Below, in pieces: positions 27,561 through 58,699 of a stretch of 64,000 bases of DNA. Both the position numbers and the translations under genes were made by a program. This stretch comes from Adhaeribacter aerolatus (lineage in GTDB: Bacteria > Bacteroidota > Bacteroidia > Cytophagales > Hymenobacteraceae): positions 62,001 through 126,000 of the forward strand of contig NZ_BJYS01000016.1 in NCBI RefSeq assembly GCF_007991635.1, in the 5' to 3' direction. A model generated the notes under the pieces. That model had not been told where the DNA came from. It worked only from the letters and a program-made list of their open reading frames with translations, and searched no databases. Each line of letters starts with the position of its first letter. Within the stretch, counting starts at the first letter, position 1.

Positions 27561-27672
27561 ACAAAAAGTTTTATAGGTTCAAACCACAAAGCTAAGGTAT
27601 AACTTGGGTTTTAAAAGAATTAAACGGGAGAAATTGTCGGGAGGATTCGTTGGGGTATGGGCAAAAAAAAGT

Positions 27673-27763
27673 GGCAAACCGAGTATCGCGCCGCTCAACC
27701 ATCTACCCTTGCTTCCTTCCGGACCTGGGGGAGTTCAACAGGAGCTGGCCGTACCGATTTGCC
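27673..27763 (-). ncRNA. ffs: small signal recognition particle RNA (4.5S type)
   Basis: On the minus strand the universally conserved SRP apical segment CAGGTCCGGAAGGAAGCA is present, corresponding to GTCCGGAAGGAAGCAGCC of E. coli 4.5S RNA. The ends pair (GGCAAATCGG at the 5' end, GGTTTGCC at the 3' end), giving a hairpin of about 91 nt, and the gene is followed by a run of eight T (27663-27670 on the plus strand as A). It is the small bacterial form, without the Alu domain. A matching promoter ends five bases before the 5' end. The RNA joins Ffh, encoded about 15 kb away. The short reading frames over this region are not genes. The remainder of the 376-base gap (27561-27936) shows only the ffs promoter and the start region of the next gene. 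Confidence 0.95.
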
Positions 27764-27767
27764 GATG

Positions 27768-27799
27768 CAAAATTAGCAAATATTTTAAACCTGCCAAAA
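27768..27799 (-). promoter_or_regulatory. ffs promoter
   Basis: On the minus strand TTTTG (27799-27795), 19 bases, then TAATTTTG (27775-27768), five bases before the SRP RNA 5' end. This is an excellent match to the Bacteroidota TTG/TAnnTTTG promoter, with the same 19-base spacing as the trp and TPR-gene promoters in this window. Confidence 0.8.
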
Positions 27800-53786: not shown

Positions 53787-54587
53787 TTATACCGCAGCAG
53801 TTTGTCCTAATGCATGAATAAAATCGGCACAAGCTTTTTCCGGCCGGCTGGTTTTCATAAAAGCTTCGCCCATTAAAAAGCCTTGGTATCTAAATTGGCG
53901 CAGTTCCCGGATAGTTTCGGGTTGGCCAATGCCACTCTCCGATACTTTAATAAATGAATCCGGAATAAGCGCCGCCAATTCTTTGGAGGTGTTGATGCTA
54001 ACAGTAAAATCTTTCAGGTTGCGGTTATTTACCCCAATCACGTCTACTTTGTCGCTGAGGGTACGTTCCAGTTCTTCCTGGTCATGCACTTCCAGTAATA
54101 TTTCGAGCCCCAAAGAACGGGCAAAATCGGCTAGTTGGTTTAGTTTTGGTGTTTCCAGGATGCCGGCAATTAATAAAATCACATCGGCCCCAATAGATTT
54201 AGCTTCTACAATCTGGTATTCATCCACAATAAAATCTTTGCGCAGAATCGGGCAAAAATTATACTTCCGGGCAGTGGTTAAATCCTCGCTTTTGCCGCCG
54301 AAATATTTCTGGTCGGTGAGTACCGAAAGCGCCGAGGCACCGGCCTGCATATACCCAATGGTGGTTTTCTCTACGGCAGCATGGGGGTTAATCATGCCCA
54401 AAGATGGCGATTTGCGTTTAAACTCCGCAATAATGCCACTCAGGTCCGGCCGTTGCAGGTACTTTTTTAACGATACCGGCTGGGTTTCAAAATAGATGCT
54501 CTGCTCCAGTAATTTTACCGGTACCAGGCTTTTCCGGTCGGCTACCTCGGTTTGTTTAAACGCCGCAATTTCTTCCAGAATATTCAT
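53787..54587 (-). CDS. trpC: indole-3-glycerol phosphate synthase
   Basis: A 266-residue TIM-barrel enzyme. Conserved pieces: GIIAEFKRKSPSLGMI, YMQAGASALSVLTDQKYFGG, PILRKDFIVDEYQIVEAKSI, GADVILLIAGIL, LEILLEVHDQEEL, VIGVNNRNLKDFTV and VSESGIGQPETI. It lies 123 bases after trpD and two bases before trpF. Confidence 0.96.
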   Translation of the reverse strand: MNILEEIAAFKQTEVADRKSLVPVKLLEQSIYFETQPVSLKKYLQRPDLSGIIAEFKRKSPSLGMINPHAAVEKTTIGYMQAGASALSVLTDQKYFGGKSEDLTTARKYNFCPILRKDFIVDEYQIVEAKSIGADVILLIAGILETPKLNQLADFARSLGLEILLEVHDQEELERTLSDKVDVIGVNNRNLKDFTVSINTSKELAALIPDSFIKVSESGIGQPETIRELRQFRYQGFLMGEAFMKTSRPEKACADFIHALGQTAAV

Positions 54588-54710
54588 TTTTCCTTAATAG
54601 TCTAAGATCTTAAGCTTTAGACTAAATATTTAAATAAGTATTTATAAACAATTAATTACCAACAATATTTATTTACTGATTTACTTAAAGCCTATCAGCT
54701 TTAAGCCAGG

Positions 54711-55697
54711 TTAAGCTAATAAGTTTTTGAAAGCCTGTAAGGCTTTACCCGATTCCAGCGACTCCCGTGCTTCGGCTAAGGCATCTGGTACTTTTAACTT
54801 GGGGTTGGCACAAAATATAGCCATACCGGCATTGGCAATTACCGCATTTTTCTGGGTCTCGGTGCCTTGGTTTTCGAGCACGTTTTTAAATATTGCGGCC
54901 GATTCTTCCACGGTATGTCCGCCGGCGAGCTCAGCCGGGTTTACGGTTTTAAAACCCAACGATTCCGGCGTAAGCAAATGTTCGCCTTCGGCCAATACCA
55001 TTTTAAACGGCGAGGTTAAAGAAATTTCGTCGTACCCATCCAGCGAATGCAGAATAATGTAGCGCTTGTTCGTCTGCTGGTACAAGTAATTGTAAAGGCG
55101 CAGCAACTCCAGGTTAAAAACGCCTACCATCTGGAAATTAGGCATGGCCGGGTTAACCATCGGGCCTAAAATATTGAAAAAAGTTTTCAGCCCTAACTCT
55201 TTCCGGATGGGGCCAAAATTTTTCATGGCCGGGTGGAAAACTTGGGCGTGCAAAAAGCAAATATTAGCCTCGTCGAGTTTGCGGCGCAGGAAATCCGATT
55301 CATTCGTAAACTGGTACCCAAAATGGGCCATGATGTTAGACGAACCGCAAATAGAAGACACCCCGAAGTTACCGTGCTTCGCCACTTTATAGCCAGCCCC
55401 GGCTACTACAAAAGAAGCCAGCGTAGAAATATTAAAAGTATCTTTACTATCGCCGCCGGTACCACACAGGTCTATTACATCGTGGGTACCTAAATCCGGC
55501 TTAATGCACAATTCCAGCATGGCATCGCGGAAACCTTCCAGTTCACTCACGGTAATATTCCGCATCAGGAAAACCGTAATAAAAGCCGCCATTTCGCTTT
55601 GGTTATAACGCCCCTGACTTAGGTCCATTAAAACCTGCCGGGCGGTTTCCTTCGTGAGTGCCTTTTGCTCGATTAAATGAATTAAAATTTCTTTCAT
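54711..55697 (-). CDS. trpD: anthranilate phosphoribosyltransferase
   Basis: A 328-residue enzyme transferring phosphoribose to anthranilate. The glycine-rich PRPP loop GTGGDSKDTFNISTLASFVV, KHGNFGVSSICGSSNIMAHF and RKELGLKTFFNILGPMVNPA are diagnostic, and the C-terminal LESGKALQAFKNLL is typical. It follows trpG after 143 bases, a gap that holds a short tandem TGCTGAT repeat. Confidence 0.95.
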   Translation of the reverse strand: MKEILIHLIEQKALTKETARQVLMDLSQGRYNQSEMAAFITVFLMRNITVSELEGFRDAMLELCIKPDLGTHDVIDLCGTGGDSKDTFNISTLASFVVAGAGYKVAKHGNFGVSSICGSSNIMAHFGYQFTNESDFLRRKLDEANICFLHAQVFHPAMKNFGPIRKELGLKTFFNILGPMVNPAMPNFQMVGVFNLELLRLYNYLYQQTNKRYIILHSLDGYDEISLTSPFKMVLAEGEHLLTPESLGFKTVNPAELAGGHTVEESAAIFKNVLENQGTETQKNAVIANAGMAIFCANPKLKVPDALAEARESLESGKALQAFKNLLA

Positions 55698-55705
55698 AAT
55701 AAATT

Positions 55706-55743
55706 AATGTGCTGATGTGCGAATATGCTGATTTGCTGATTTG
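55706..55743. repeat. short TGCTGAT tandem-like repeat in the trpG-trpD gap
   Basis: Three imperfect units containing TGCTGAT (TGCTGATGTG, TGCTGATTTG, CTGATTTG) lie at 55708-55743, directly upstream of trpD on the leftward operon. Such repeats occur in intergenic DNA of related bacteria; no function is proposed. Confidence 0.5.
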
Positions 55744-55840
55744 AAAAATGTAGCAATATTAGCTTGTTTTCTAAACTTTAACCGTCTGACTTTTAGCTAA
55801 AACTAAATTATAACAATCTAAATGCTAATTATTTAAAATA

Positions 55841-56440
55841 TCAAATCCAGCTTTTCTTAGGGGTGATGGAGCCTTTCAGCCAGGTGCGCATCATGGTTTC
55901 GCCGTGCTCGGTTAAGATAGATTCGGGGTGAAACTGCACACCTTTTACATTGTATTCGCGGTGACGCAGCGCCATTATTTGTCCATCGGCATCAACCGCT
56001 GTAACTTCCAGTTCGTGGGGAAAAGATTTAGGTACCACCACCCAGGAATGGTAACGGGCAGCTTTAAATTCGTGCGGTAAACCCCGGAAAATTGGTTCGT
56101 TATTTGAAGAAACCCGAATGGGCGTGGCTACCCCGTGCACCGGCTCCGGTAAATTCAGAAGCGAACCGCCAAAAGCCTCCGCAATGGCCTGGTGCCCCAG
56201 ACAAACGCCAAATATTTTCTTTGTAGGTGCATAGCGTTTAATTAAATCCGGCATTATGCCGGCTTCGGATGGTACACCCGGGCCCGGTGATAAAAGAATA
56301 TTATCGTATTCCTCTACCGCGTCCAGCGTTATTTTATCGTTCCGGTAAACATCCATTTTCGCTCCGTAACCCAGCTTTTTAACCAGTTGTACCAGGTTAT
56401 AGGTAAACGAATCGTAATTATCTAACACTAATAATTTCAT
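55841..56440 (-). CDS. trpG: anthranilate synthase component II (glutamine amidotransferase)
   Basis: A 199-residue class I glutamine amidotransferase that delivers ammonia to TrpE. LLVLDNYDSFTYNLVQL, LSPGPGVPSEAG, GVCLGHQAIAEAFGG (nucleophile Cys), RYHSWVV and VQFHPESILTEHGE are present. ATG at 56440 begins the conserved region; the longer frame from 56488 adds unrelated residues. It lies 70 bases after the broken four-helix-bundle gene. Confidence 0.95.
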   Translation of the reverse strand: MKLLVLDNYDSFTYNLVQLVKKLGYGAKMDVYRNDKITLDAVEEYDNILLSPGPGVPSEAGIMPDLIKRYAPTKKIFGVCLGHQAIAEAFGGSLLNLPEPVHGVATPIRVSSNNEPIFRGLPHEFKAARYHSWVVVPKSFPHELEVTAVDADGQIMALRHREYNVKGVQFHPESILTEHGETMMRTWLKGSITPKKSWI

Positions 56441-56495
56441 TTTCTGATAAAGTTTAAAGTTTAAGGTTAAAAGTTGAAGGGTTTCCACTAATGCC

Positions 56496-56510: not shown

Positions 56511-56884
56511 TTACTTTATTTTATTCTGATAATCCTTGATGTATTTAATAAAACTTGAAAGCTGACCAGACAAGCTATTTAACTCGGAAAATTTATTATT
56601 ATAAAATTCATTTTCAATAATCTCTAGTTCCTTCAAAATGAAAAGCTGACTTCTAAGCTCTCCTGCTGACCCCTTGGCATATTTCAGAAATCGTACAAAC
56701 TCATTGTTATTATTGTATTCAAATCCTTCGGCGATATTACTTGAAATAGAGAAAGCAGCTCTTTTTATCTGGTCTTTAGGTGCAAAATCATTCTTCAATT
56801 TTTCGGTTTCACAAACTTTATAAATATCAATTGCAATCTGGCCGGCCTTTTCCAAACATCTAAATCTTCAAACCGCTTTGCCAT
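56511..56884 (-). pseudogene. four-helix-bundle protein (S23/IVP family), frameshifted, inserted in the trp operon
   Basis: A gene of the 23S rRNA-intervening-sequence protein family of four-helix-bundle proteins. The C-terminal 114 residues are open from 56855, with KRAAFSISSNIAEGFEY, EFVRFLKYAKGSAGELRSQL and LKELEIIENEFYNNKF, all typical. The expected N-terminus MAKRFEDLDVWK is encoded from an ATG at 56884 but in another frame. Adding one A in the A4 run (T4 at 56848-56851 on the plus strand) joins the two into a normal protein of about 124 residues, MAKRFEDLDVWK then KAGQIAIDIYK. Either the gene is broken, is rescued by frameshifting, or the read has a homopolymer error. It separates trpE and trpG, with 12-base direct repeats at both flanks. 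Confidence 0.85.
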
Positions 56885-56934: not shown

Positions 56935-58347
56935 TTAAATATCCGCAGCCAAAACCAAAGCTTTGCGCAGAGCCGCCAGTTTGTGGTTAACTTCGTTCAG
57001 TTCCGATTCCAGAACCGATTTAGCTACCACACCCGCTCCGGCCTGGTAATACAAGCGGTTCTGCACGCTCATGAAAGACCGAATCATGATGGCGTGGTTG
57101 AAGTCGCCGTTGAACCCGATAAACCCAATACAGCCACCATAATAACCCCGCCCGGTTGGTTCCAGTTCATCAATAATGCTCATGGCTTTGTATTTGGGCG
57201 CCCCCGATAAGGTTCCGGCCGGAAAAGTATCGGCTACCATCAGCATAGGGGCTACTTCTTTGCTGCGGGTGCTGGTAACTTTTGAAACGAGGTGAATCAC
57301 GTGTGAATAATATTGCACTTCTTTGAATACTTCCACGTTTACATCGTCGCCGTGGCGGCCCAGGTCGTTGCGGGCTAAATCAACGAGCATCACATGTTCG
57401 GCATTTTCTTTGGGGTCTTCGTAGAGTTTGCGGGCCAATTCGGCATCTTTGGCATCGTCGCCGGTGCGCCGGAAAGTACCGGCAATCGGGAATATACTGG
57501 CTTTATTGCCTTTTAATAAAATCTGGGCTTCGGGCGAAGAACCGAATATTTTAAAGTTGCCATAATCAAAATAAAATAAATAAGGCGATGGATTGATGGA
57601 ACGCAAGGCGCGGTAAACATTAAATTCATCGCCTTTAAAGCCTTGCGAGAACCGCCGCGACAGCACAATCTGGAACACATTGCCAATATTACAATGGTGC
57701 TGCCCCTCGCCGATAACTTTTAAAAATTCTTCGTCGGTATAATTTGAGTCTTCGTCGTTGCTGACTTTAAAAGAAAAGGAAGGAATATTTTTATTGCGGA
57801 TAAGCGCTTCGAGGTTAGCCAGGCCTTTGCCATCGTTGTTCTCGTCAATGCTGTGCTCAAAAATGTAAAGGTCGTTTTTGAAATGGTCAACCACAATTAC
57901 ATAGCGGTACAGGCTATAAAAAATATCGGGCAAACCTTCGTAAGCGGTTTCTTTGGGGCGGAAGGTAAGGTCTTCGTAATAAGTTACGGCGTCGTAGGCC
58001 ATGTACCCAAATAAGCCGTTGTTTACGAAATTGAAATCGTGTTCTTTTACGTAGAAGCAGTTCACAAACTGCTGCAGGTGTTTTACGGCATCGCGCCGTT
58101 CGGTTAAAGTGAGTTGCTCTACCTTCCCATCCGGGAAAAACTGGCTGATAACGCCGTTCTTTAATTCGACCCCCCCAATTGGTTCGCAACAAATATACGA
58201 GAAGCTGTTTTCGTGTCCGTGGTAGTCGGAGCTTTCCAGCATAATGCAGTTGCGGTATTTATCGCGCAATTGTAAATAAATACCTACCGGGGTTACTGTA
58301 TCGGCTAATAAATGCTTGTGAACCGTATAAAGTTTATACTTATCCAT
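56935..58347 (-). CDS. trpE: anthranilate synthase component I
   Basis: A 470-residue chorismate-using enzyme, the first committed step to tryptophan. The N-terminal domain has the feedback motif region with MLESSDYHGHENSFSYIC (L/M-E-S near residue 36), and the catalytic domain has FQIVLSRRFSQGF, GSSPEAQILL, PIAGTFRRTGDDAKD, ENAEHVMLVDLARNDLGRHG, DTFPAGTLSGAPKYKAM and GRGYYGGCIGFIGF. It heads the trp operon; the attenuator lies just upstream. Its mRNA would be switched by Trp-tRNA levels through that attenuator. Confidence 0.97.
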   Translation of the reverse strand: MDKYKLYTVHKHLLADTVTPVGIYLQLRDKYRNCIMLESSDYHGHENSFSYICCEPIGGVELKNGVISQFFPDGKVEQLTLTERRDAVKHLQQFVNCFYVKEHDFNFVNNGLFGYMAYDAVTYYEDLTFRPKETAYEGLPDIFYSLYRYVIVVDHFKNDLYIFEHSIDENNDGKGLANLEALIRNKNIPSFSFKVSNDEDSNYTDEEFLKVIGEGQHHCNIGNVFQIVLSRRFSQGFKGDEFNVYRALRSINPSPYLFYFDYGNFKIFGSSPEAQILLKGNKASIFPIAGTFRRTGDDAKDAELARKLYEDPKENAEHVMLVDLARNDLGRHGDDVNVEVFKEVQYYSHVIHLVSKVTSTRSKEVAPMLMVADTFPAGTLSGAPKYKAMSIIDELEPTGRGYYGGCIGFIGFNGDFNHAIMIRSFMSVQNRLYYQAGAGVVAKSVLESELNEVNHKLAALRKALVLAADI

Positions 58348-58374
58348 TTAAAGAGATATGTTAAGGTCTTAAAA

Positions 58375-58446
58375 CAAAAAAGCCCAAGTGTGAACTTGGG
58401 CTTTCTTTTATGCGCTATGATAAAATTACAGGTATGCCGCGTTCAC
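58375..58446 (-). terminator. trp attenuator: intrinsic terminator with competing antiterminator
   Basis: On the minus strand AAAGCCCAAGT (58404-58394) pairs perfectly with ACTTGGGCTTT (58389-58379) around a four-base loop, followed by T6 reaching 58375, 27 bases before the trpE ATG. Upstream, GTGAAC (58446-58441) is complementary to GTTCAC (58395-58390), which lies in the terminator's 5' arm and loop, and GGC (58438-58436) can add to it by pairing with GCC at 58401-58399. This gives a candidate antiterminator. It follows the stop of the leader peptide by 46 bases. Confidence 0.85.
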
Positions 58447-58450
58447 GCTC

Positions 58451-58504
58451 TTAGTTTTCTAAAAGGTGCCACCAACCAGCAGTATGTAATGTTATGTTCT
58501 TCAT
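58451..58504 (-). CDS. trpL: trp leader peptide
   Basis: A 17-codon open frame on the minus strand: MKNITLHTAGWWHLLEN, with two adjacent Trp codons (TGG TGG, codons 11 and 12) and a TAA stop. This is the classical arrangement for ribosome-mediated attenuation: when Trp-tRNA is scarce the ribosome stalls at the Trp codons, the antiterminator forms and trpE is read. It lies just after a strong promoter and 46 bases before the terminator hairpin. The ATG is only seven bases after the -7 element, so the message would begin almost at the start codon. It is too short for ordinary gene calling, but the Trp-Trp pair in exactly this context is very unlikely to be chance. Confidence 0.88.
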   Translation of the reverse strand: MKNITLHTAGWWHLLEN

Positions 58505-58511
58505 TCTGTCG

Positions 58512-58542
58512 CAAATATAAAGGTGGTTTTGGTTTATCCAAA
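58512..58542 (-). promoter_or_regulatory. trp operon promoter
   Basis: On the minus strand TTTG (58542-58539), 19 bases, then TATATTTG (58519-58512), a full match to the Bacteroidota consensus, with the same spacing as the ffs promoter. The transcription start is expected near 58507-58505, at the doorstep of the leader peptide ATG (58504). The rest of the gap, 58543-58699, is AT-rich with no feature I can name. Confidence 0.82.
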
Positions 58543-58699
58543 ATAATTTAATTTAAATTATTTGGGGTGGTCTTATTTAAATTTAATCCTTTAGGAACCG
58601 GAAGTATCGGTAGAGTGGCAAAATATTAAACCCACATTATATTTCAGAAAAATCTATAGCAAAGTGCAAGGGCTCAAATAAATAATTTAAAATTAATAT

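Follow-up and report, generated by a model that had tools for sequence, protein, structure and literature searches.

The proteobacterial Trp_leader family (RF00513, Escherichia coli trpL) shares with the region upstream of trpE in Adhaeribacter aerolatus a Trp-Trp leader peptide and a competing antiterminator and terminator. The 5' UTR of the E. coli trpL transcript is longer and contains a Shine-Dalgarno site. Vitreschak 2004 reportedly mentions Bacteroidetes. The original prediction treated attenuation of trp as a proteobacterial classic; this view needs amending since a trp leader RNA family of Bacteroidota, Bacteroid-trp (RF01692), is already in Rfam and is reported in the part of Weinberg 2010 used here (PMC2864571). 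Its consensus has tandem UGG codons after the AUG and ends in an apparent terminator 5' arm, like the A. aerolatus leader. The RF01692 model begins 20 nt before the AUG, a segment that would be promoter DNA in near-leaderless members, and it did not match the A. aerolatus leader in a search up to E 10. It matches 3 of 20 tested loci above cut-off; 18 of the 20, including those three, are near-leaderless by the gap rule given below, so that this count is uninformative on the layout across the family. The top Rfam match of the leader is to RF00513, with 31.5 bits for a cut-off of 41 and E 6.7e-5 in a 231-base search; in a 41,864-base search this match did not reach E 0.01. A small SRP RNA (RF04183) was found above cut-off at 27669-27770 (minus strand) of the window, the whole 64-kb stretch of A. 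aerolatus DNA that was analysed and to which all coordinates refer.

Precedents also exist for leader peptides on leaderless RNAs. In the alphaproteobacterium Sinorhizobium meliloti the 5' end of the trpL/rnTrpL RNA is reported to be the ATG of the Trp leader peptide that attenuates trpE(G) (PMC7298713), a 0 nt UTR to be compared with the 3 nt, predicted only, of A. aerolatus. The ribosome-mediated attenuator of the Corynebacterium glutamicum ilvBNC leader is discussed as a leaderless mRNA (PMC11857589); it controls a branched-chain operon of Actinobacteria, whereas the A. aerolatus leader precedes a trp operon of Bacteroidota. Structured 5' regions of Flavobacterium psychrophilum are reported to give clues for leader-peptide attenuation at amino-acid operons, and the consulted part of that study does not describe near-leaderless leader ORFs (PMC9723704). 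A literature search, most subscription journals being outside it, turned up no account of a near-leaderless Trp leader in Bacteroidota. Considering RF01692 and the S. meliloti and C. glutamicum precedents, trp attenuation in Bacteroidota and a leaderless leader peptide were each already known singly. The novelty is the recurrence of the near-leaderless layout in a phylum with few leaderless mRNAs. According to published accounts, consulted in part, about 3.7% of 5' UTRs are shorter than 10 nt in B. thetaiotaomicron, 5.5% of F. psychrophilum mRNAs are leaderless (PMC9723704), and 87% of predicted F. johnsoniae transcripts have leaders longer than 10 nt.

The A. aerolatus sequence bears out the order of elements originally proposed, a promoter followed by a 17-codon Trp-Trp peptide, a terminator with six T's and trpE, all on the minus strand (Table 1). 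A spacer of 19 nt separates TTTG from TATATTTG, and 7 nt (cgacaga) lie between TATATTTG and the leader ATG on that strand. Since the TAnnTTTG box is reported at -12 to -5 in Flavobacterium (PMC9723704, PMC6847099, both consulted in part), the RNA is predicted from promoter geometry to start at 58507, 3 nt before the ATG. The claim of a nearly leaderless start is thus favoured by the published box position and by the 7-nt gap found in 8/8 genomes of the genus, its 5' end remaining a prediction. The distance from the leader-ORF stop to the terminator is 43-46 nt. The terminator core is an 11-bp stem, AAAGCCCAAGT / ACTTGGGCTTT, which extends to 14 bp counting flanking A-U and G-U pairs, and is followed by six T's at 58381-58376 (minus strand). 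Folding of the leader region gives z = -4.18, with 0/200 shuffles equally good. The locus therefore has the short tandem-Trp leader ORF before trp genes and the intrinsic terminator before the first gene that are expected of an attenuator.

Table 1. Features of the trpE leader and operon of A. aerolatus (positions in the window)
Feature	Position	Strand	Basis
-33 promoter element TTTG	58539..58542	-	sequence; TTG at spacer 19 in 8/8 genus genomes
-7 promoter element TATATTTG, perfect TAnnTTTG	58512..58519	-	sequence; identical in 8/8 genus genomes
Predicted 5' UTR, 3 nt; predicted transcription start 58507	58505..58507	-	inferred: 5th base after box
Trp leader peptide ORF MKNITLHTAGWWHLLEN and stop, 17 codons	58451..58504	-	sequence and comparison of trpE upstream regions
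Tandem Trp codons TGG TGG, putative stall site	58469..58474	-	sequence; invariant in 8-genome alignment
Antiterminator 5' strand, GTGAAC..GGC	58436..58446	-	register and covariation across genera
Antiterminator 3' strand, GCC..GTTCAC	58390..58401	-	overlaps terminator 5' arm and loop
Intrinsic terminator, 11-14 bp stem, loop TCAC, six T's	58376..58407	-	terminator scan and folding
Sub-threshold RF00513 Trp_leader match	58374..58480	-	covariance-model search, below cut-off
trpE, anthranilate synthase component I, first operon gene (ATG at 58347)	56935..58347	-	Pfam Chorismate_bind and Anth_synt_I_N
trpG-like, trpD-like and trpC-like genes, downstream of trpE	53787..56488	-	Pfam GATase, Glycos_transf_3, IGPS

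Two other features of the region are recorded here. An imperfect AT-rich palindrome, CCAAATAATTTAA...TTAAATTATTTTGG (58538-58565), overlaps the -33 element; by eye, it is partly kept in two other Adhaeribacter genomes (L002 and L003) and is not seen in five more (L004-L008). Within the operon, a small ORF of the 23S_rRNA_IVP type (PF05635) at 56511-56855 (minus strand) separates trpE from the trpG-like gene; the TTTAAA/TTAACC-rich stretches on its two sides resemble each other and give it the appearance of an insertion.

The proposed antiterminator pairing of GTGAAC (58446-58441) with GTTCAC (58395-58390) can form, and 3 further base pairs are offered by GGC (58438-58436) with GCC (58401-58399). 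The placement of GTTCAC inside the terminator 5' arm is correct for its GTT half, found in or next to the arm, and not for its CAC half, which is mostly loop. The antiterminator GUGAAC..GGC/GCC..GUUCAC has a predicted energy of -9.4 kcal/mol before the terminator 3' arm is made; with this arm present the predicted fold reaches -23.5 kcal/mol. Its 5' strand begins 22 nt past the Trp codons. Taken singly, the 6-bp A. aerolatus helix is weak (p 0.07 versus shuffles), p spans 0.07 to 0.58 across seven rule-scored genomes of the genus, and only 28/111 leaders reach p 0.05 individually. The antiterminator register emerges from comparison: when the stretch after the Trp codons was searched against the terminator 5' arm and loop and the best helix taken, this helix began 17-23 nt past the last Trp codon in 72/111 leaders (14.6 expected from shuffles), in 42/66 when counted by genus (9.0 expected) and in 69/105 by locus. 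A competing antiterminator in register with a Trp-stalled ribosome is therefore found by comparison, being weak in A. aerolatus alone.

The letters of the helix vary among leaders (GTGAAC/GTTCAC, GCGATAAGTC/GACTTATCGC, CGGGGTTCTG/CAGAACCCCG, GGATGA/TCATCC), and the leader stop codon is located before, inside or after the antiterminator strand, depending on the leader. Swapping partners between genera weakens the pairing, from a mean of 9.79 for own partners to a cross-family mean of 7.39 (67 genera); own pairing exceeds the cross mean in 56/67 genera and 0/20,000 permutations were equally good. The pairing is invariant in the 8-genome alignment of Adhaeribacter, so that the covariation signal stems from other genera.

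The trpE upstream regions compared were 130, made of 50 from relatives, 40 from a phylum sample (101 matches in 392 genomes; 6 were already in the set and 40 of the other 95 were taken) and 40 from an order sample (169 of 211 genomes searched; loci taken from among the matches listed). The phylum and order loci were hand-picked to spread over genera with their upstream sequence still unseen, and one region (L113) is shortened by a contig end. An ORF that begins with ATG, is 8-45 codons long and has Trp codons side by side (WW ORF) precedes trpE in 112/130 regions and is absent from 18/130. Applied to eight other residue pairs, the same rule gave 4-29 regions, and in ten dinucleotide shuffles it gave 0-7 per shuffle. 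At least three consecutive Trp codons occur at 80 trpE loci. A WW leader was also present at 72/74 further organism-named loci, which are 80 minus 6 duplicating loci already counted. The 112 loci hold 119 WW ORFs, 114 of which have an intrinsic terminator close downstream, a raw count by our own rule without shuffle expectation.

Within Adhaeribacter, 8/8 genomes preserve the terminator stem together with GTGAAC and the WW codons; in one of them (L004) the T run is broken after an intact stem and the terminator rule failed there. In a named relative, Adhaeribacter rhizoryzae, TrpE is 94% identical to that of A. aerolatus and the leader peptide is the same. Attenuation, as originally predicted, is strongly supported by these WW ORFs, the antiterminator register and the covariation. 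The original prediction would have been contradicted by relatives lacking the peptide and the hairpin; both are conserved in most of the trpE upstream regions compared, and the pairing covaries between genera.

Some trpE upstream regions hold additional ORFs. Six genomes of another genus of the family (g6, L009-L014) have two tandem Trp attenuators about 90-320 nt upstream of trpE: the first leader (..AWWH..) is predicted leaderless and the second, nearer trpE (..WWHQSEDS before the stop, and variants), combines 7-14 bp antiterminator helices with a terminator of its own. Another lineage with two WW ORFs is Flammeovirgaceae UBA1842 (L297). In four of the eight Adhaeribacter genomes (L005-L008) the WW leader and trpE are about 220-330 nt apart, and the stretch from the trp terminator to trpE holds a second, aromatic-rich ORF ending at a stop codon, e.g. 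MRLYFFFRTNYYWQG. Synonymous changes leave the core of this ORF, FRTNYYW(Q/R)G, intact, no clear second terminator was seen there, and a pattern search of 39 genomes retrieved it from these four only.

We consider it probable that the A. aerolatus leader is a ribosome-mediated trp attenuator whose leader ORF begins some 3 nt downstream of the predicted RNA 5' end. Sequence and comparison show the peptide, the terminator, the antiterminator register, the covariation and the conserved promoter-ATG spacing; the exact 5' end, the leaderless loading and the response to tryptophan are inferred. The ribosome would load on the near-terminal AUG, presumably without the help of a leader. When charged tRNA-Trp is scarce it would stall at TGG TGG with its front edge just short of GTGAAC; assuming the usual footprint, the antiterminator strand would be left just free. 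GTGAAC could then pair with GTTCAC, the terminator would be blocked and trpE transcribed. When tryptophan is plentiful, the ribosome would reach the stop codon and cover GTGAAC, the terminator would form and transcription would end.

To assess the spacing between promoter and leader, each WW ORF was assigned the nearest perfect box no more than 160 nt from its Trp codons and, as start, the first in-frame ATG lying 3 nt or more beyond that box. This rule gave a usable perfect -7 box for 86/119 WW ORFs; the 33/119 without one, among which six are the second leader of a tandem pair, were set aside. A box-ATG gap of 3-9 nt is present in 38/86 leaders, spanning 22 genera and 10 families. Twelve of these 38 have a predicted UTR of 0 nt (including a doubtful case with a 3-nt gap), 9 one of 1 nt, 4 one of 2 nt, 9 one of 3 nt, 3 one of 4 nt and a single leader one of 5 nt. 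Among further named loci, 30/67 have the 3-9 nt gap. The control consisted of ordinary genes in 800 kb of six genomes, where 113 of 638 long ORFs, called mechanically and with uncertain starts, have a box. The gap is 3-9 nt in 38/86 Trp leaders versus 10/113 of these ordinary genes (p 1e-8), and in 22/47 genera (p 2e-7). When the -33 TTG is also demanded, the near layout is found in 32/69 leaders versus 1/22 ordinary genes (p 2e-4), and in 17/34 genera (p 3e-4). Earlier controls had given 0/13 near-leaderless genes (400 kb, -33 box demanded) and 3/53 when relaxed; the figures used are those of the enlarged control, 1/22 strict and 10/113 relaxed.

The gap is 7 nt in 8/8 Adhaeribacter genomes and 4 nt in 6/6 genomes of another genus of the same family, which by the published box position makes the latter exactly leaderless. 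Hymenobacter and Pontibacter, of the same family, have 20-52 nt between box and ATG; one leadered genus in the family spans 27-41 nt, another 32-50 nt, and a third keeps to 21-22 nt. Flavobacterium species have a gap of either 4 or 16-18 nt. The longer gaps in Hymenobacter, Pontibacter and Flavobacterium indicate that the near-leaderless layout is dispensable for attenuation. On a TrpE tree of 93 proteins, built quickly and with long branches flagged, near and far states (near meaning up to 10 nt here, 3-9 nt being used for counts against ordinary genes) change 11 times, at least 7 of these changes being forced by the starred branches; shuffled labels need about 31 changes. The state is thus inherited within clades yet has repeatedly changed, gain and loss being indistinguishable. 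As a pattern, the recurrent near-leaderless design is well supported, its 5' ends being predicted.

Other amino-acid operons were inspected for the same layout. At A. aerolatus hisG, a His leader MSTSKKNISSPVSTEVFSGSPATFLHCFHHHHSSHEE (MSTSKK...HHHHSSHEE, then stop) starts 8 nt after TACCTTTG. Visual inspection shows a long-looped GAGGAATAAT/ATTATTCCTC hairpin, with a T run, that overlaps the end of this leader ORF. His-rich ORFs were found in 8/28 hisG upstream regions, seven with a perfect box within 60 nt and five of these seven with a gap of 4-10 nt; the crude rule was negative in the other 20/28. Crude residue rules also gave candidate leader ORFs in 8/20 thrA and 10/30 ilvD upstream regions. 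In these small samples (20 thrA and 30 ilvD regions) no candidate has a perfect -7 box 3-10 nt before its ATG; the ilv candidates have zero boxes within 60 nt and the thr candidates two, at 26 nt. Upstream of A. aerolatus ilvD a probable leader, MNFRHVILSQIIFSVIIDAKRLMV followed by a stop, was recognized by eye; a hairpin and T run lie downstream of it, and it lacks a perfect -7 box close by. This leader was missed by the rule, so that the residue rules overlook cases. There is some indication that the near-leaderless layout is common to some his leaders, and the few ilv and thr leaders found are without it.

The features of the trp locus could be read otherwise. That the WW ORF is a chance ORF beside an ordinary terminator is extremely improbable: short ORFs are common, but WW ORFs occur in 112/130 regions against 0-7 in shuffles and the fold has a z of -4.18. 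We regard as very improbable that tryptophan is sensed by a T-box, a TRAP-like protein or a riboswitch and that the WW ORF is incidental, since nothing was found in its favour, T-box and riboswitch families were absent from the Rfam matches of the leader, at E 1 and up to E 10, and the antiterminator keeps its register with the Trp codons. An unlikely reading, though of another order, is that the attenuator is real but its RNA comes from another promoter upstream and has an ordinary 5' UTR, the TAnnTTTG by the ATG not being the main start. The A. aerolatus start is indeed a prediction, Hymenobacter and Pontibacter have longer gaps, and published maps, as far as consulted, put leaderless mRNAs at about 4-13 percent by their own criteria. 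Against this reading, a perfect -7 box and a -33 TTG at spacer 19 are followed by the unchanged 7 nt in 8/8 genomes, this gap being kept although, by eye, the spacer and upstream sequence differ between the two halves of the genus, and 3-9 nt gaps are about five times commoner in Trp leaders than in ordinary genes.

A different matter is whether the near-leaderless spacing serves attenuation. It might result from drift, being tolerated by ribosomes that do without Shine-Dalgarno sites and having no role in attenuation, which is compatible with the attenuator itself; we give this a probability somewhat below even. Such drift would fit the coming and going of the layout, with 11 changes on the quick TrpE tree and 7 of them forced, the coexistence in the family of attenuators with 20-50 nt gaps, and the failure to find ilv or thr leaders with the layout in the regions tested. 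It accords less well with the enrichment of the layout over ordinary genes, with gaps fixed at 7 nt (8/8) and 4 nt (6/6) where two leadered genera vary (27-41 and 32-50 nt), although a third is nearly constant (21-22 nt), and with the near-leaderless spacing of 5/7 His-rich leaders having a nearby box.

Bacteroidota hardly use Shine-Dalgarno sites, which raises the question of how their ribosomes initiate, and few mRNAs of the species mapped so far are leaderless. We tentatively propose, with confidence just short of even, that trp and some his attenuators of Bacteroidota tie their timing to ribosome loading at the RNA 5' end and that selection maintains the near-zero UTR as a component of the attenuator. 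If so, a leader AUG within about 5 nt of the transcription start would let the ribosome engage the AUG as it leaves the polymerase. Because attenuators require a timely ribosome on the leader, the ratio of terminated to read-through RNA would give a quantitative measure of initiation on a nearly leaderless RNA, and related genera with predicted UTRs of 0-5 nt versus 20-50 nt would provide natural comparisons.
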